From an uncultured SAR86 cluster bacterium (GTDB lineage: Bacteria > Pseudomonadota > Gammaproteobacteria > Magnimaribacterales > D2472): 43,028 nucleotides of DNA. Position numbers and translations under genes: made by a program. Positions 6,224-43,028 of the stretch are shown piece by piece. How positions within the stretch are numbered: the stretch's first letter is position 1; each line of letters begins with the position of its first letter. Location: assembly GCA_902594005.1 (NCBI GenBank), contig CACJKN010000008.1, forward strand, positions 1 through 43,028, in the 5' to 3' direction. The notes below the pieces were generated by a model. That model worked only from the letters and a program-made list of their open reading frames with translations, did no database searches and was not told the DNA's origin.

Positions 6224-8004
6224 TGTTTAAGCTTAGATATATTCTCTATACAGGATTACTATCGTTAGGTTTAGTTGTTGCTTTTAATCTATCTCTTATA
6301 CCAAATTTCTTTTCTAAAACTAATGATGAGCAGAAATTTTTAGAACTTCTAGATAAAGAATTTGCAAAATCAATAGAGGATAATCCCATCTATGCATCCT
6401 ATATGGGAGATTTGCGCTTCAATACATTATGGCCTGATTATTCAATTGAGAAGATAAATAAAGATCATGAGCACACATTAAAAGTTATTCGAGAACTTGA
6501 AATGATGAGTATTGATGATTTTTCAGATGAAAATAAACTTAACTATCGATTGTTTTTAGATGGTTATAAAAACTCTGCAGAAAAACATCAATATCAAATA
6601 CATTTACTACCTTTTAGTCATAGAGGTGGTATTCAACTTCAACACGAAACAGCTGAAACATTACCTCTTCGTAATTTTCAGCAATATATGGATTGGATTT
6701 CTCGTCTAGAAAAACTTGATGATGTAATTGATCAATATATTGCACTAGCAAACCAAGGTATTGAAAATCAAGTCATGCCCCCAAAGGTTTTAATGAGTAG
6801 AGTCCTAAATCAAATAAAATTACAAAATGTTGATTCTTATATAAATAGTCCTTTCTATGATGCATTTGAGTTTTTACCAGATGAAATATCAAATCAAGAA
6901 CAAGAACAAATAAGAGATCAAGCGCAAATTACTATAACCAATGTTGTAATACCCTCTTATGTAAAGTTATTAAATTTCTTTGAAAATTCTTATTATCCTA
7001 ATTGTAGAGACACAATAGGGATTAGCGATATTAAAAATGGTTCACAATACTATGAACTCATCGCTAGGCAATTTACAACTACCGAGCTCACCCCAGATGA
7101 AATACATAATATTGGATTAAATGAAGTATCCAGGATAAAGAATGAAATGTTTAAGATTATGGATCAAGTTCAATGGAATGGAAGTTTTGATGAATTCTTA
7201 GACTTTTTAAGGACAGATAGCCAATTTTACTTTGAAACAGGTGAAGAGCTATTTACTGAATATCTTGCTACATCTAAAAGAATAGATCCTTTGTTGGTTA
7301 AATTATTTAAAGACTTGCCTTCAATGCCATATGGATTAAAACCTATACCAATGGAGAGTGCTCCTGATACTACAACAGCCTACTATCAAAGACCTGCTGC
7401 TGATGGTTCAAGAGCTGGATATTACTATGTAAACCTATATATGCCTGAGGTTAGACCTAAATATGAAATAGAAGCACTATCACTTCATGAGGCAATGCCT
7501 GGTCATCATTTACAAATTGCCTATACGATGGAATTAGATTTACCGAACTTTAGAAAATATGGGGGGTATACAGCATTCGTTGAAGGATGGGGTTTATATG
7601 CTGAAAGTTTAGGTGAAGATTTAGGTATGTATAAGGATCCATATTCCAAATTTGGTCAGCTAACATATGAAATGTGGCGAGCAGTAAGACTTGTTGTTGA
7701 TACCGGTATGCATTACAAAGGATGGTCAAGACAACAATCAATTGAATATTTCTTAGACAATGCAGCAAAAACAAAACAGGATGTCATAAATGAAATTGAT
7801 AGGTATATTAATTGGCCTGGTCAAGCATTGGCATATAAAATTGGTGAACTTAAAATAAAGGAACTTAGAGCTATTTCTGAGAATAAGTTAGGTGATGAGT
7901 TTGATATTAAAGAATTCCATCATGAGGTTTTGAGACATGGGGGCATACCTCTTTATGTTCTTGAGGAAAATATAAATTCTTGGATCAATCAGCAAATAAA
8001 TTAG
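6223..8004 (+). CDS. DUF885 family protein (putative metallopeptidase)
   Basis: Signal/TM N-terminus; LSLHEAMPGHHLQ and EGWGLYAESLGEDLG motifs; TAATG overlap with the preceding gene. Confidence 0.9.
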   Translation: MFKLRYILYTGLLSLGLVVAFNLSLIPNFFSKTNDEQKFLELLDKEFAKSIEDNPIYASYMGDLRFNTLWPDYSIEKINKDHEHTLKVIRELEMMSIDDFSDENKLNYRLFLDGYKNSAEKHQYQIHLLPFSHRGGIQLQHETAETLPLRNFQQYMDWISRLEKLDDVIDQYIALANQGIENQVMPPKVLMSRVLNQIKLQNVDSYINSPFYDAFEFLPDEISNQEQEQIRDQAQITITNVVIPSYVKLLNFFENSYYPNCRDTIGISDIKNGSQYYELIARQFTTTELTPDEIHNIGLNEVSRIKNEMFKIMDQVQWNGSFDEFLDFLRTDSQFYFETGEELFTEYLATSKRIDPLLVKLFKDLPSMPYGLKPIPMESAPDTTTAYYQRPAADGSRAGYYYVNLYMPEVRPKYEIEALSLHEAMPGHHLQIAYTMELDLPNFRKYGGYTAFVEGWGLYAESLGEDLGMYKDPYSKFGQLTYEMWRAVRLVVDTGMHYKGWSRQQSIEYFLDNAAKTKQDVINEIDRYINWPGQALAYKIGELKIKELRAISENKLGDEFDIKEFHHEVLRHGGIPLYVLEENINSWINQQIN

Positions 8005-8849
8005 CTCTAGTTGAGCCATCAAATTTTAATTTTAATACAGAGACGTTTGATACAAATGTTTTTCAAAATGATGTTCAATTTAATAAGTTAAAGATTTTTG
8101 AAGAGTTTGATAACTTTATAAGCACATTAGATAAAAATAAAATCTCATTTAATATTCTAAAGAGTCCAAAAAATTCACCTGATGGCATATATCCTAATAA
8201 TTGGGTTGTAACTTTTGAAGATGGATCTTATGACTTATTTAGTATGCAATCTCCTAATAGACGTCTAGAAAGATCAAACTCAAACATAAATTTTTTAAAT
8301 ACGAACTATTCACTTAAAAATGATTTAACTGAATATGAAGCAAAAAATATTTTTTTAGAAGGAACGGGGTCTTTGGTTTTAGATAGAGTTAACAAAACCG
8401 CATATATGGCTGAATCAAATAGATCAAACGTAACTTTAGCTTCAAAATGGTCTCAACTTAGAGGATATGATCTTGTTTTTTTTAAAAGCTATATAGATAA
8501 AAAACCTACTTACCATACAAATGTTCTAATGTTTATTACAAATAAATTTGCTGGAATATGTTTTGATTCAATTTCCGACTCTAAATACTTACTATCAAAT
8601 ATTGAAAAAACTCATAAGATTCTTTATTTATCAATAGAGCAGGTTAAAAGTTTCTCAGGGAATGCCATAGTAGTAAGAAATATTAATAACGAAGGTAAAT
8701 TTTTAATATCTTCATCTGGTCTAAATGCTTTAGATTTAATACAAAAAAGATTTATTGAAAAATATTACGATATCGTAGAAATAAATATTCCCACAATTGA
8801 AAAAATTGGTGGTGGTTCAGTTCGTTGCATGCTATTGGAGTTATTCTAG
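7980..8849 (+). CDS. Arginine deiminase/amidinotransferase-fold protein (citrulline utilization hydrolase CtlX-like)
   Basis: FLEGTGSLVLDR, YHTNVLM and C-terminal GGGSVRCMLLE (catalytic Cys) motifs; TTG start inside the 3' end of the DUF885 gene. Confidence 0.82.
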   Translation: MDQSANKLALVEPSNFNFNTETFDTNVFQNDVQFNKLKIFEEFDNFISTLDKNKISFNILKSPKNSPDGIYPNNWVVTFEDGSYDLFSMQSPNRRLERSNSNINFLNTNYSLKNDLTEYEAKNIFLEGTGSLVLDRVNKTAYMAESNRSNVTLASKWSQLRGYDLVFFKSYIDKKPTYHTNVLMFITNKFAGICFDSISDSKYLLSNIEKTHKILYLSIEQVKSFSGNAIVVRNINNEGKFLISSSGLNALDLIQKRFIEKYYDIVEINIPTIEKIGGGSVRCMLLELF

Positions 8850-11149: not shown

Positions 11150-13910
11150 CGCTTGGTAAAGATCGTATTCTTGATTCTAAATCATTAATAAATGATTCTT
11201 CTATTTTTGGCTCGACAGTTAAATACCAAATCCTAGGATTTTCAAAATTCTTACAACGAGCTGCATCTTTTTCAGTCATTATTATTGGATGATGATCAAG
11301 AAATTCAAGATCGCTTTCTTCAAATTGATGATGATCAGGGAATGGGTGTCTTTCAATATCAAAATTTATTTGGGATAGAGTATCAAAAAATCTACCAGGA
11401 TTACCTAAACCAGCAACTGCATGTATCTGATTATGCATAGGCCATTTATCAATATCATATGATTTACCTGTATTTAAATGCACAAATTTGCTTGGCTGAA
11501 GGGTCATTAGAATTTCACCATCCTCAGTTGGTCCGCCATTGTTGATAATATAGTTTCCTGTTTTTAATCTTTTTGATGATTCTCTTAGAGGTCCTGCTGG
11601 GAATGTTAAACCATTTCCAAGTCTTCTAGATCCATCTATGACGATAATTTCAATATCACGATACATCTTATAATGTTGAAGACCATCATCAGATAAAATT
11701 ACGTCACAGTCATTTTCATTTATTAGATTTTGAATTGCTCTTGGTCTATTTTTATCTAAATATAAAGGAGCATTTAAATTAGCAAGCATTTGCGCTTCAT
11801 CACCTGATTTTTTATATTCAGTATTATCATCAACTCTCAATGTTCCTGAGAAGTTACCGCCATAGCCTCTTGAGACAATTCCAACCTTTAAACCCCTCTC
11901 TTTTAGTTTTGAAGCAATATACTTAACTAGAGGTGTTTTACCTGTTCCACCAATATTTATATTTCCAACAACAACAACTGGAGTATCTGTTTTAAAAGAC
12001 GAAACCTGGTTTTTAAGATATTTTCTTCTTCGTCTATTAGTTAGAAAAGTAAAAATCCATGAGAATGGTAAGAGTAGATACAGCCATAAATGTTTTTGAT
12101 ACCAAGCATTTATTACAAAACTAGAATTATTTTCAACATCGTCAATTGGTTGCAAGTATGAAACTTTTTGTAAGGATGTAGATGATGATTTCTTACTTTC
12201 AATTGGAACATTTTTATATAGTGAAGAGTATATGCCCTCTTCTTCGAGTAGATCTGAATGTTTTCCTTGTTGCGATATAAGGCCATTATCCAGTACTACT
12301 ATTTGATCAGCATTTTCAATGGTTGATAATCTATGAGCTATAACTATCGTAGTTCTATCAGATATTAACTTTTCAAGTGACTCCTGCACTAATTCTTCCG
12401 ATTCAGTATCAAGAGCAGACGTTGCCTCATCGAGAATAATAATTGGAGAATTTTTATAAAAAGCTCTTGCTATAGCAAGCCTTTGTCTTTGACCGCCTGA
12501 CAGTAGTACACCATCATCACCTATTTCTGAATTTATACCTTCTGGTAATTTATCTATAAAATCTAAACATCCAGCTAATCTGGCAGACTCCATTACTCTC
12601 TCAGTATCAAATTCGTCATCACCATAGGCTATATTTCTTTCTATAGTGTCATTAAATAGTGTTGGTGACTGAGTAACAATTGATATGGATTTTCTAAGAA
12701 AGCTTAAATCATATTCATTATTTGGGATTCCATCTATGAATATCTGTCCAGTGTAATCTGAATAAAATCTAGAAATAAGATTAGCTAATGTAGATTTTCC
12801 CGATCCCGATTTACCAACAAATGCTATTGTTTCATGTTTATTAACAGTTAAATTTATATTATTTAATATATTTTTATTTCCTGTATATCCAAAAGAAACA
12901 TCTTTAAACTCTATAACACCTTCGATAGGTTTTGTTGTATCTCCAGTATTTACCTCATCATCAAAATCTAATTGATCAAATATCTCATTTGCAGCAGCTA
13001 AACCTTTTTGTATAACCCCATTAATGCTTGATAACTGTCTTATAGGTTTTGCCATCAAGCCTGCTGCTGTAAAAAATGCTACGAAGGTTTCGGCATCAAG
13101 TGTTATTCCTAAGGAAGAACCTAATGCAAAGTATGCAACTAAGGAAAGAGAAATAGAAACTAAAAATTGGATTATTGGTGTAGCTAAATTATTAGTAGCT
13201 TCAAGTTTTAGATTCTGAACTTTATTTGAAGAGTTAGCATCTGCAAATCTACTATTTTCATACTCTTCAGCACCGAATGATTTAATTTCAACATGGCCAT
13301 TTACGGCTTCTGAAGCAATATGAGTAACATCGCCCATTGCTGTTTGTATTTTTTTAGCAAGTCTTCTAAGTCTTTTACCAGCAAAATAAACAATTATTGC
13401 AATTAAAGGAGCAGTAACAATAAGAAGCAACGTTAACCTCCAGTTAAGATAGATCATATAAAAGAATAAACCTATTAATAAAAATCCTTCCCTGACTAAG
13501 GTTTTAATAGCATTAGATGCTGCACCAGATACTTGGGTTGTTGTGAATGTAATTCTATTAATTAATTGACCAGACTGATTTTGATCAAAATATTTTTTTG
13601 GTAACTGATGTAACTTTTTAAATAGTTCATCTCGAAGATGGTAAACAACTCCAAATCCCACTCTAGCCATAAAGTAATTACCAATAAAGAAACCCAATCC
13701 GCGTGCAAGAGCAATACCAATTAAAGATAAAGCAAGAAGTTGCTGTTTATCTTCTGAGTTATCATTAATGAAGCCAATAATTTGCCTAATCCATTCAACT
13801 GCTGCTATATCAGCTGATGCAAATAAAATAAATCCAAAAATACTTATTAGGAAAGACCATTTATATCTCCATGAGTAAGAAAATAATCTTTTTAATGAAT
13901 TTTGTTTCAT
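11142..13910 (-). CDS. msbA-lpxK: Fusion protein: lipid A flippase MsbA (N-terminal) and tetraacyldisaccharide 4'-kinase LpxK (C-terminal)
   Basis: One 922-aa frame. MsbA: Walker A GKSGSGKST, LSGGQRQRLAIARA, IIILDEATSALD. LpxK: GNINIGGTGKTPLV, VSRGYGG, SDDGLQHY, VIDGSRRLGNG, PAGPLRE, MTEKDAARC. Confidence 0.95.
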   Translation of the reverse strand: MKQNSLKRLFSYSWRYKWSFLISIFGFILFASADIAAVEWIRQIIGFINDNSEDKQQLLALSLIGIALARGLGFFIGNYFMARVGFGVVYHLRDELFKKLHQLPKKYFDQNQSGQLINRITFTTTQVSGAASNAIKTLVREGFLLIGLFFYMIYLNWRLTLLLIVTAPLIAIIVYFAGKRLRRLAKKIQTAMGDVTHIASEAVNGHVEIKSFGAEEYENSRFADANSSNKVQNLKLEATNNLATPIIQFLVSISLSLVAYFALGSSLGITLDAETFVAFFTAAGLMAKPIRQLSSINGVIQKGLAAANEIFDQLDFDDEVNTGDTTKPIEGVIEFKDVSFGYTGNKNILNNINLTVNKHETIAFVGKSGSGKSTLANLISRFYSDYTGQIFIDGIPNNEYDLSFLRKSISIVTQSPTLFNDTIERNIAYGDDEFDTERVMESARLAGCLDFIDKLPEGINSEIGDDGVLLSGGQRQRLAIARAFYKNSPIIILDEATSALDTESEELVQESLEKLISDRTTIVIAHRLSTIENADQIVVLDNGLISQQGKHSDLLEEEGIYSSLYKNVPIESKKSSSTSLQKVSYLQPIDDVENNSSFVINAWYQKHLWLYLLLPFSWIFTFLTNRRRRKYLKNQVSSFKTDTPVVVVGNINIGGTGKTPLVKYIASKLKERGLKVGIVSRGYGGNFSGTLRVDDNTEYKKSGDEAQMLANLNAPLYLDKNRPRAIQNLINENDCDVILSDDGLQHYKMYRDIEIIVIDGSRRLGNGLTFPAGPLRESSKRLKTGNYIINNGGPTEDGEILMTLQPSKFVHLNTGKSYDIDKWPMHNQIHAVAGLGNPGRFFDTLSQINFDIERHPFPDHHQFEESDLEFLDHHPIIMTEKDAARCKNFENPRIWYLTVEPKIEESFINDLESRIRSLPSDE

Positions 13911-38582: not shown

Positions 38583-39536
38583 ATGGCTAATCCATCCACT
38601 CTTTATCCAAAAATTGAACCTTTTAATACTGGTTTCTATAACGTTGATGGACATCAAATTTACTATGAGCAATGTGGAAATCCTAATGGAAAACCTGCTG
38701 TTTTTCTTCATGGAGGACCTGGTGGAGGTGGTAGTGAGGAGGTAAGAAGATTTTTTAATCCTGAAAAGTATAGACTTATAGTTTTTGATCAAAGAGGTTG
38801 TGGAAGAAGTAAGCCTCATGCATGTCTAGAAAATAATACAACATGGCATTTAGTTGAAGACATAGAAAATATTAGAGAATTATTAAATATAGATAAATGG
38901 CTTGTATTTGGTGGATCGTGGGGAAGTACACTAGCATTGGCTTACTCTCAAAAATATCCAAAATCAGTATTGGAGATTATTCTAAGAGGAGTATTTCTTT
39001 TGAGACAGCATGAGCTTGATTGGTTTTACCAATATGGTGCAAGCCAAATCTTTCCTGAAGCTTGGCAAGAATATATTAATATTATTGATTATGATAAAAG
39101 GGATAATTTAATTCTTGCTTACCAAGAAATATTTGCAAGCAACGATGAAGAAAAAAAATTGAATGCTGCAATCACATGGTCAAAATGGGAAGCGGCAACC
39201 AGTAATTTAAATTACAAGGAAAGTCAGATTACAGAATTTACAGATCCAAAATTTGCTTTAGGGTTTGCTCAAATTGAAAACCACTATTTTGTAAACAAAG
39301 GTTTTTTTGAATATGAGAATCAATTACTAGATGGTATTGATAATATACGTCATATACCATGCGTAATAATTCAAGGAAGATATGATATTGTTTGTCCAAT
39401 TTCTACAGCATGGGAACTTTCAATGAAGTGGCCGGAAGCTGAATTTAAGGTAGCTAAAAACTCTGGTCACTCAGCTTTTGAAGATGAAATAGCAGAAACT
39501 CTAATTCAATATACTGATAAATTTTCTAAAACTTAA
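38583..39536 (+). CDS. pip: Prolyl aminopeptidase (proline iminopeptidase)
   Basis: FLHGGPGGGGSEEVRRFFNPEKYRLIVFDQRGCGRS; VFGGSWGSTLALAY; GRYDIVCP; SGHSAFE. Confidence 0.95.
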   Translation: MANPSTLYPKIEPFNTGFYNVDGHQIYYEQCGNPNGKPAVFLHGGPGGGGSEEVRRFFNPEKYRLIVFDQRGCGRSKPHACLENNTTWHLVEDIENIRELLNIDKWLVFGGSWGSTLALAYSQKYPKSVLEIILRGVFLLRQHELDWFYQYGASQIFPEAWQEYINIIDYDKRDNLILAYQEIFASNDEEKKLNAAITWSKWEAATSNLNYKESQITEFTDPKFALGFAQIENHYFVNKGFFEYENQLLDGIDNIRHIPCVIIQGRYDIVCPISTAWELSMKWPEAEFKVAKNSGHSAFEDEIAETLIQYTDKFSKT

Positions 39537-40129
39537 TCCGGAAGGTCGTTTGGATTTATTACATCATAATTAGCTAAACTAACGAGATCATCTTTTTTTA
39601 TAATCTTAATAGTGTTCTCAATGGTGTTTACAGAGGTTGAAAAAATTGCAGCATTTATACTGGGAAAAGATCTTTCAAGAACAAGACCATATGATTTTGC
39701 GAAAGCATTAAAATTAACTTTATTTTTGAAAACAACCTCAATGGAGCCATCTGTAAAATAAATATTTTTATTATTATCTATCAATACTTTTAATTCTCTT
39801 TTAGGGATGGAAATATCTACTTGATCAGATTTTATTTTAGAATTAATACTGTTGAACAAAGATCCCTTTTCTAACTCATAAGCATAATTACCAATTACAA
39901 CAATACCCTGCCCTGAAATATCATCATTTCTGAGGTTTATGGCATAAGATTCCAAAACTAATGAATATTCTTTTTCATATGAATTAATCGATTGAATTTG
40001 GACAGTATTCTTTTCTTGGTTTAGATAGACCGGTTCAGATCGTTTAATTTTTCTTTCATTAGAATAAGACAAAGTCTGCAATGGAATAAATGTTAATAAA
40101 AATAATCCTATATATAAAAATCTAATCAT
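39533..40129 (-). CDS. Secreted hypothetical protein with a C-terminal region resembling a subtilase prodomain
   Basis: Signal peptide MIRFLYIGLFLLTFIPLQTLS; C-terminal IEVVFKNKVNFNAFAKSYGLVLERSFPSINAAIFSTSVNTIENTIKIIKKDDLVSLANYDVINPNDLPD; starts 3 bp after the S8 protease stop. Confidence 0.7.
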   Translation of the reverse strand: MIRFLYIGLFLLTFIPLQTLSYSNERKIKRSEPVYLNQEKNTVQIQSINSYEKEYSLVLESYAINLRNDDISGQGIVVIGNYAYELEKGSLFNSINSKIKSDQVDISIPKRELKVLIDNNKNIYFTDGSIEVVFKNKVNFNAFAKSYGLVLERSFPSINAAIFSTSVNTIENTIKIIKKDDLVSLANYDVINPNDLPD

Positions 40130-40132
40130 TTT

Positions 40133-43028
40133 TTAATTACCCCAAACCCTAATAGCCCAATTATTTAGAGTTCCTTCATCATCGTTATCAGTATAATCGA
40201 TAATTTTTAGTTTCCAGTCACCTGTAATATTTTCTCCATAAAAACCATTAACCCCTATAACTGACCATGATCCATTTGGGTTTCCGGAAATATTAGTAAA
40301 GGGTTGTAATATATTCATTTCGGTTCCTTGTGGTGAAACAAGCATAATCCCTAAATCTCTTGGTGTTTCTTTTGTTAAATAAACAGCTAACTGAATATAT
40401 TCAACAAAATTGTTTGTTGTTGTAGGATTATATGAAATTGTATTATCTATAAGAGTAAAACTTGGAATTAGTTGATTCTGCGTGGCTTCTGGTGAGTATG
40501 ACCAACCATAAGAATTAAATGTACCAAGTGAGCCTAAGGCATAAGAAGAAGCAAAATCGAGCGCACTATCTAAATCAAATGCACCGAAACCATACCAATT
40601 ATGGAAATGATATCCTGCTGCATTGGTTTCCCATTCATACTGAACAATATCACTTCTAGTATAGGATCTATCTTCATCTACTTTTCTAGCTGAATTTGCA
40701 ATTACATGTTTGACCTCTCTCCATGTGAGATCTGGATATGCTTCTAAAAGTACTGCTATAGCACCAGCCACACTTGGAGCAGCTGATGATGTTCCATTAA
40801 ACGAAGAAGTATAATTACAACTTGGGTTATCTGGATGTGGATTTGAGCTATTATTAAAAGCATTACGATTACTTGAATTAGAACTAACATATCCAACATC
40901 ACATGATGATTGATCTGTAGTCATAACGGCTGGCTCAAAATACTTATCAGCACCAGACCATCCTAAATCATAGTTATAACCGTATTCGCCACCAGTTCCT
41001 GACACCCAAATGGATGGATCAGTAGTTGAATAAGAAGATTTAATTCCATCTGCGCCAAGAGCCCCTACAGCAATGATGTAGGGAATTGTATGTCTTACGT
41101 CTTGGAATCTTGTTGTACAGCCCATTGCTCCGTCATCATCTACACCCTCTTCTCCACAAGCTGAACCATTAGTAGCATAACTTCCGAAACCATTTCCCAT
41201 AGATTTAACATAGATACCGCCCTTACCGTCTCTAAGATTATTAACACCATTAATTAATGCATTATTAGTAATTGTGTTAGGTAAATTCCCAGTTGGAAAA
41301 GAGAATGTCCCAGTAGAGCTGTTGTAACCTGTTACACCATAGCTCATATTAAATATATCTGCTGAAACAATTGAATTATCCAGACCCCAAGAAAATGCCT
41401 GGTTGCTTGATGATCCCCATCTTAAATAATTATAACCAACTAAACTTGCATCAGGTGCGACTCCTCTTCCACCCTTATTATTCCAGCCTTTTGAGGCAAT
41501 AATTCCAGCGACACTAGTGCCATGATCACCACTTGTATATTCACTTGTAGGATCATTTGTTCCAGTAACGAAATTATATGATTTCCCCAGTAGAACATTT
41601 GGCGAGAGATCTTCATGAGCTATTTCAAGTCCGCCATCTAACACAGAAACTATTAGATCTTTCCCTGTGTAGCCTGATGAAATTGAATTGGTTGTATTTA
41701 AGTCTTGATCTAGAACACCAGCAATTGATCCAAAATTCTTTTGGCCTGTATTTTCAAGATGCCATTGATATTTATACAAAGGATCAGTATTTAAATTGAT
41801 TGTTAGTTTTGCTGTTGATTCATTACCAGCACCATCACTTACTTTAAATGTTATTTCTTCAATAGCTACATCTGTATATGAAGTATCATAATTTAATTCT
41901 CCAGAGGTCTCATTAACGGATGAGGTTCCATATATGCCATCAGTTTCAATAGAAAAAGATGGAGATCTACCATCAATAACATAACTTTGAAGCTGAATAC
42001 TTAATGAATTAGTTGTTTTGGGTAATAGATTTAAATCTCCTGATGTTGGTATCGCTTCAGCAATTACATCATTAAGATTAATTGTAAATTCTTGAGTTAC
42101 GGTAAACGCACCATCGGAAACGTTAACTTTAATTTTATAAGTAGCTTGAGTTTCATAATCAGGATTTGAAATAAAATAAATGTTACCTTCAGAGTCTATC
42201 CTAAATAATGAGCCATCTTCGAAGTCAGAAACAATTTCAAAAGTAAAAGAATTATTTGTATCTAGGTCAGAAACTGATATCTGTCCTACGCTTGATATAT
42301 TTTCATTGATAGTAAATGAGCTGTTTCCAATTATAGGCGCATTATCATTAACATCATTTATTTGAATGGTTACAAACTCTGATGCCGATGCAACTCCATC
42401 ACTAACTGTTACTGTTCCTGAAAGTGAGGTCTCTATTTCATAATCAGGAGCTGAAGCGAAGGAAAGTCTTCCAGTATCACTTATAGTTAAATATGTTCCG
42501 CCTTCAATAGGATCATCAACCTCAATAGAGTAAGTCATAGGAACAGGATTTGGACATGCGCTTGAGCCAGGTGTAACTGAAGGTGTCCCTGGTACATCTG
42601 CATCAGTTACTACAATGCAGCCAACATCTGTTTGATTCTCATCTGCATTCACTGGAAGCCCAACTATTTCAGGTGGACTATCATTCATATCAGTGATTCC
42701 TACTCTCACAGCTATACTGTCAGTCAAGCTAGTGTTTAACGAAGATCTTGCAACAATCTCAACAATGCCGGAACTATTTACATCACTCTCTTCATCTGGT
42801 GGATCTATAAATGTAAGAGTTCCATTTGAATCAATTTGAACCAGATCTACGATTGAATTATCACCATAACCTTCTGGATATTGAAGTTCATAAGTTATGG
42901 TATCTGAAGATCCTCCAGAAGCAGGAAAATCTCCTATAAATGTTACATTTTCCTCTACAGATACTTCTCTAACATACTCTCCATATGAAAAGAAAGGACA
43001 CGTTACAGAAGTTCCATCTCCTACAGTG
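40133..43028 (-). CDS. Cadherin-repeat / S8 subtilisin-like serine protease with C-terminal P (proprotein convertase) domain; 5' part beyond window
   Basis: Triad motifs VSVLDGGLEIAHEDL, GDHGTSVAGIIASKG, FNGTSSAAPSVAGAIAVLL; P-domain end TGDWKLKIIDYTDNDDEGTLNNWAIRVWG; cadherin motifs DMNDSPPEI, DVNDNAPII. The frame stays open past the called TTG start (42727) to the edge. Confidence 0.93.
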   Translation of the reverse strand, partial: TVGDGTSVTCPFFSYGEYVREVSVEENVTFIGDFPASGGSSDTITYELQYPEGYGDNSIVDLVQIDSNGTLTFIDPPDEESDVNSSGIVEIVARSSLNTSLTDSIAVRVGITDMNDSPPEIVGLPVNADENQTDVGCIVVTDADVPGTPSVTPGSSACPNPVPMTYSIEVDDPIEGGTYLTISDTGRLSFASAPDYEIETSLSGTVTVSDGVASASEFVTIQINDVNDNAPIIGNSSFTINENISSVGQISVSDLDTNNSFTFEIVSDFEDGSLFRIDSEGNIYFISNPDYETQATYKIKVNVSDGAFTVTQEFTINLNDVIAEAIPTSGDLNLLPKTTNSLSIQLQSYVIDGRSPSFSIETDGIYGTSSVNETSGELNYDTSYTDVAIEEITFKVSDGAGNESTAKLTINLNTDPLYKYQWHLENTGQKNFGSIAGVLDQDLNTTNSISSGYTGKDLIVSVLDGGLEIAHEDLSPNVLLGKSYNFVTGTNDPTSEYTSGDHGTSVAGIIASKGWNNKGGRGVAPDASLVGYNYLRWGSSSNQAFSWGLDNSIVSADIFNMSYGVTGYNSSTGTFSFPTGNLPNTITNNALINGVNNLRDGKGGIYVKSMGNGFGSYATNGSACGEEGVDDDGAMGCTTRFQDVRHTIPYIIAVGALGADGIKSSYSTTDPSIWVSGTGGEYGYNYDLGWSGADKYFEPAVMTTDQSSCDVGYVSSNSSNRNAFNNSSNPHPDNPSCNYTSSFNGTSSAAPSVAGAIAVLLEAYPDLTWREVKHVIANSARKVDEDRSYTRSDIVQYEWETNAAGYHFHNWYGFGAFDLDSALDFASSYALGSLGTFNSYGWSYSPEATQNQLIPSFTLIDNTISYNPTTTNNFVEYIQLAVYLTKETPRDLGIMLVSPQGTEMNILQPFTNISGNPNGSWSVIGVNGFYGENITGDWKLKIIDYTDNDDEGTLNNWAIRVWGN

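Follow-up and report, generated by a model that had tools for sequence, protein, structure and literature searches.

The subtilase ASP of Aeromonas sobria is made without a propeptide and requires a separate protein, ORF2, to mature. The ORF2 gene lies just downstream of that of ASP, the C-terminus of ORF2 (...Gln-Pro-Lys) is in tight contact around the ASP catalytic site, and ORF2 inhibits ASP (PMC5638518). Homologous operons have been reported in Vibrio, Shewanella, Chromobacterium, and Pseudoalteromonas (PMC5638518), and a survey from 2022 still presents ASP as the exception among subtilases, without an N-terminal propeptide (PMC9549277). Here, we examine a subtilase gene and the small open reading frame (ORF) behind it in an uncultured SAR86 cluster bacterium (GenBank assembly GCA_902594005.1). 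The window, by which we mean the whole stretch of DNA analyzed, is contig CACJKN010000008.1, 43,028 nucleotides long. An initial annotation, made from the sequence alone, had read the C-terminal part of the 198-residue product of the small ORF as a subtilase prodomain detached from its protease. Fold, homology, synteny, and the lack of a prodomain in cis uphold that reading. The module is not of a new kind, given bacterial ASP-ORF2 (PMC5638518), which the annotation had left out, naming only fungal inhibitors as parallels. Because the protease matches ASP, homologous small proteins match the ORF2 family PF18492 (ORF_2_N), and the ASP-ORF2 pair is described in the literature, we consider it highly likely that the window pair is a divergent pair of the ASP-ORF2 type, a kind already known.

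Both genes are on the minus strand. The window is one whole contig, hence the protease gene (40133 to 43027) is incomplete at its 5' end. The 964 residues present comprise cadherin/Ig-like repeats, an ASP-type Peptidase_S8 catalytic domain (40583 to 41665, residues 455 to 815; PF00082, E = 1.3e-35), and a P_proprotein domain, or P-domain (40148 to 40402, residues 876 to 960; PF01483, E = 7.2e-16); we refer to this architecture as S8-P. The top matches of the S8-P part among PDB sequences were ASP (3hjr_A and 3wqb_A, E = 1e-64) and kexin (E = 2e-33). The protease alignment shows no variation at the catalytic Asp, His, and Ser or at the oxyanion Asn. The S8 domain of the window is the sole one found in its genome (~79% complete).

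The usual place of a prodomain, directly before S8, is taken by cadherin/Big_9-like repeats (41786 to 42355; PF00028/PF17963 at residues 225 to 317), which pass straight into the start of the S8 domain (TDPLYKYQWHL). Pfam found no prodomain in the 964 residues present (5' end cut) and none in three full-length relatives (1246 to 2148 residues), which begin with a lipobox (SCGGGGG) followed by cadherin/Ig-like repeats. These scans agree with the initial annotation, which had described a cadherin-like stretch free of a prodomain before S8, and no canonical prodomain was found in these relatives in the N-terminal part unseen in the window, where the annotation had left room for one. All SAR86 partner proteases with a complete 5' end (1246 to 2319 residues) have a lipobox start and cadherin/Ig-like repeats up to S8, and the SAR86-type protease is probably cell-bound, with a lipid anchor and an extended stalk as its tether. 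Two SAR86 proteases of the ASP type (L021, 11248 to 13227; L020, 1770 to 3746) have an extra domain of ~100 residues between S8 and the P-domain; by eye it is cupredoxin-like (ending YYYCEIHSEMG), and no Pfam family scored over threshold.

Three nucleotides separate the TAA stop of the protease ORF from the ATG of the small ORF (39533 to 40129), which is on the same strand and in the same frame; the ORF listing thus confirms the arrangement given by the annotation. The hydrophobic start of the 198-residue protein (residues 1 to 22, 40064 to 40129; MIRFLYIGLFLLTFIPLQTLSYS) reads as signal-like, consistent with the signal peptide of its own that had been proposed. In an AlphaFold model built on a 39-sequence alignment, residues 112 to 190 reached a pLDDT (predicted local distance difference test) of 90 to 98, with a beta-alpha-beta-beta-alpha-beta order over residues 129 to 188. 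A smaller, less certain subdomain was modeled at about residues 55 to 126; over the first ~100 residues the sequence varies and part of the chain is disordered. A six-member profile of the small protein gave only chance matches to PDB sequences, so a fold search was needed. The Foldseek matches in PDB were headed, in order, by pro-subtilisin E, the BPN' prosegment (1spb_P), 3cnq_P, the pro-part of PAM protease, and EpiP. ORF2 in complex with ASP (3wqb_B) ranked 7th, with the longest alignment among the top prodomain matches (93 columns); the furin/PC1 prodomain came after it, and POIA1 (1v5i_B) ranked 50th. Residues 112 to 198 (39536 to 39796) thus form a prodomain-like C-terminal domain, and AlphaFold and Foldseek both recover the beta-alpha-beta prodomain that had been read from the letters. 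From the ORF, profile, AlphaFold, and Foldseek, we designate the product a predicted external prodomain and chaperone of the ORF2 type.

We also searched the 39 small proteins encoded directly downstream of S8-P proteases, window included, against Pfam. With matches counted up to E = 1, 34 of them hit PF18492 (best 4.9e-11) and 13 hit PF22148 (Fervidolysin_NPro-like; best 2.6e-8); one SAR86 homolog (L004) scored 23.6 bits for PF22148, over the cut-off of 21. The window protein itself matched neither PF18492 nor, over the cut-off, PF22148. None of 369 Gammaproteobacteria genomes gave a PF18492 match, but the control was negative throughout as well, so absence is not shown. The small protein is very probably a folding helper and temporary inhibitor of the neighboring protease, encoded separately from it.

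Strong matches in a profile search placed homologs of the small protein in 8 of 107 SAR86-family genomes, window included. All eight lie directly behind an S8-P protease on the same strand, therefore the pairing is not due to chance. The pair that the annotation had singled out is conserved in relatives, and no such ORF was found without an S8 neighbor. A single-sequence search with the window protein found no related loci, its relatives being too divergent. Weak profile matches in three other genomes (G036, G091, and G070) look like chance; the surrounding loci contain no S8 gene, and the matched ORFs in G036 and G091 resemble YidC and DsbC by eye. S8 proteases of some kind occur in 47 of the 107 genomes, and in the loci read there was no prodomain module beside the other SAR86 S8 types (L108-L112, L114, L116-L130, L132-L136). 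Some of these proteases have ~2060 to 2690 residues (e.g., L108, L111), and a second type is lipoprotein-like, with ~780 to 870 residues (e.g., L116, L118); Pfam found only S8 in the parts of L111 and L118 that were scanned.

The S8-P alignment, run against 84,980 species genomes, yielded 80 ASP-type loci, and we then searched all six frames of these loci with an iterated profile of the C-terminal domain. Record titles place the loci in Gamma-, Beta-, and Alphaproteobacteria, Myxococcota, Thermodesulfobacteriota, Bdellovibrionota, an acidobacterium, and others; because the majority come from metagenome bins, these taxon names can be trusted only as far as the binning. The prodomain module was present in 69 of the 80 loci, as a downstream gene on the same strand (43 loci), an upstream gene on the same strand with its own start (16), a downstream convergent gene (3), or a fusion to the N-terminus of the protease (7), and no locus had two layouts. 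The weakest accepted match had an E value of 6e-9, compared to 0.014 for the best match in a reversed-sequence control. Pfam backs two of the layouts independently, as PF22148 scores exceed the cut-off in an upstream protein (L068, 22.2 bits) and a convergent one (L055, 26.5 bits); a fused form (L057, 19.0 bits) falls just under it. In the first round, without iteration, the match within the fused group was strong only for L064 (8.6e-5), and the others depend on intermediates. The small gene often overlaps the protease gene by 11 nucleotides and is mostly in a different frame. At one locus (L046, 5548 to 12423), two protease-sized ORFs of ~690 residues are each followed directly by a near-identical ORF2-type gene (7622 to 8314 and 11731 to 12423); this looks like a duplicated pair of protease and chaperone. 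Of the two large ORFs, only the first was flagged as S8 by a simple serine motif.

The position of the chain end is nearly fixed. Among 62 detached proteins, 57 have at most one residue between the end of the domain and that of the chain (56 with no gap, one with a gap of 1), and Pro is the second-last residue in 39 of the 62. In the window, the C-terminal tail INPNDLPD (39536 to 39565) ends in Pro-Asp and is the counterpart of the ...QPK tail of ORF2 (PMC5638518). The annotation had likened NPNDLPD to a PNDP-containing junction, which is not a conserved feature; what is conserved is that the chain ends one residue past Pro. Six of the seven fused forms have Pro-X at the same register (RRPM, RVPA, AVPQ, VVPQ, RRPM, and VRPM), followed by a linker. 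Most simply, the end of the detached protein would correspond to the cleavage point of a propeptide in cis.

We mapped the layouts onto a tree of the S8-P proteases and counted 10 changes in all, with truncated loci treated as a state, compared to a mean of 33.5 after shuffling. With other SAR86 S8 proteases as the outgroup, the downstream layout is basal and the fused forms sit among the upstream ones; fusion would therefore be derived, but the outgroup branches are very long, and the rooting is weak. On balance we favor, with some reserve, a scheme in which ASP-ORF2, far from a rare exception, is one layout of a broad bacterial subtilase group with a movable prodomain (downstream, upstream, convergent, or fused), the detached ends correspond to the processing site of the fused forms, and trans prodomains have been re-attached more than once. 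The kind of pair is known, and the spread of layouts appears undescribed; we found no papers describing these layouts in the searchable literature, from which most subscription journals are excluded.

Several observations weigh against assigning the window pair to the ASP-ORF2 type or against the generality of the arrangement. On its own, the window protein has no match in Pfam or NCBIfam, so its membership depends on intermediates and fold, and its tail ends in Asp, not in Lys as in ORF2. The Foldseek E values are weak (best 0.012), though the probabilities of the top matches are 0.99 to 1.00. We also modeled S8-P and the small protein as one read-through chain, purely as a modeling device given the genuine stop codon between them. 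The S8 domain came out poorly (pLDDT <45 at residues 243 to 331), the tail at residues 748 to 750 was <50, and its placement is not confident. Finally, the module is absent from 11 of the 80 loci. Three of these are cut by contig ends, and the other eight form one clade of related proteases (L065, L071, L072, L073, L094, L096, L100, and L102) with no recognizable prodomain in or beside the gene in flanks of up to 6 kb. Most of the eight have a convergent neighbor that is FtsX-like by eye and does not match the module profile, and the chaperone of this clade, if any, must lie elsewhere or be unrecognizable.

A different explanation is that the small protein is a standing inhibitor, like POIA1 or Pbi2, that shields the cell against this protease or others, with folding not dependent on it. 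It shares its fold with POIA1, which is among the Foldseek matches, and ORF2 itself inhibits ASP (PMC5638518). However, the protease has no prodomain in cis, the module appears as an N-terminal prodomain in seven relatives, the gene is coupled to that of the protease, often with the 11-nucleotide overlap, and maturation of ASP requires ORF2 (PMC5638518); we regard a pure inhibitor as unlikely. A role of the small protein as protease substrate or cargo, or chance cotranscription of a secreted protein unrelated to the enzyme, is very improbable. The variable, partly disordered N-terminal ~100 residues would suit such readings, but the prodomain fold, the Pfam prodomain matches of homologs, the fused forms, and the coincidence of domain end and C-terminus in 57 of 62 cases do not. 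An artifact, either a single gene broken by misassembly or an ORF present by chance, is suggested by two ORFs in the same frame 3 nucleotides apart and has next to no likelihood. The module lies downstream of the P-domain rather than at the N-terminus and has its own signal-like start, and the arrangement is refuted as an artifact by its presence in many genomes, where the two frames mostly differ.

Under an arrangement of the ASP-ORF2 type, the cadherin-stalked and probably lipid-anchored S8-P protease would be made without a prodomain, and the 198-residue protein would be exported separately and supply the prodomain in trans. Its beta-alpha-beta-beta-alpha-beta domain would pack on the S8 domain and template folding, with the tail, which ends one residue past the conserved Pro, occupying the active-site cleft as a cleaved propeptide does. 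The enzyme would be kept off until the helper is degraded or released. For the SAR86 pair, the analysis shows the gene order, the fold, the homology, the lack of a prodomain in cis, and the fixed chain end, and we infer export, folding help, inhibition, and release from the described system. Because the last residue of the tails nearest to that of the window is D, N, E, H, or Q rather than K, and because a tethered enzyme is probable, both release and specificity may depart from those of ASP-ORF2.

With dozens of proteases in several phyla that have a separate or relocated prodomain, both annotation and expression practice would change, and heterologous expression of such a protease without the neighboring small gene is expected to give misfolded enzyme. 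The occurrence of the same prodomain in cis and in trans also provides a natural comparison for how far linkage matters for folding and for the timing of activation.

Other enzymes depend on separate helpers. PC2 with 7B2 and lipases with the Lif foldase are cases in which a separate secreted or membrane protein aids enzyme maturation; their folds are unrelated to this system, and PC2 retains its own prodomain. POIA1 of Pleurotus and Pbi2 of yeast share the free-standing propeptide-like fold, but to our knowledge they are not gene-coupled to a single prodomain-less protease. The Fervidolysin-type prodomain (PF22148) and the Inhibitor_I9-like propeptides of subtilisins have the same beta-alpha-beta-beta-alpha-beta fold, and some homologs score over the PF22148 cut-off; these propeptides are normally N-terminal in the protease chain, whereas the window domain belongs to a separate protein with its own predicted export signal. 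The closest counterpart is ASP-ORF2, with which the window pair and its relatives share a kexin-like S8 and P-domain protease without a propeptide, a gene for a small secreted protein just downstream, the prodomain fold, a chain end of the form X-Pro-X, and PF18492 matches among homologs. In the SAR86 type, unlike in ASP-ORF2, the protease bears an extended stalk of cadherin/Ig-like repeats, and its full-length relatives have a lipobox; the tails closest to the window tail terminate in D, N, E, H, or Q, in contrast to the K of ORF2, and the window protein is below Pfam detection. In the wider family, fused, upstream, and convergent layouts occur as well as the downstream arrangement of ASP-ORF2.

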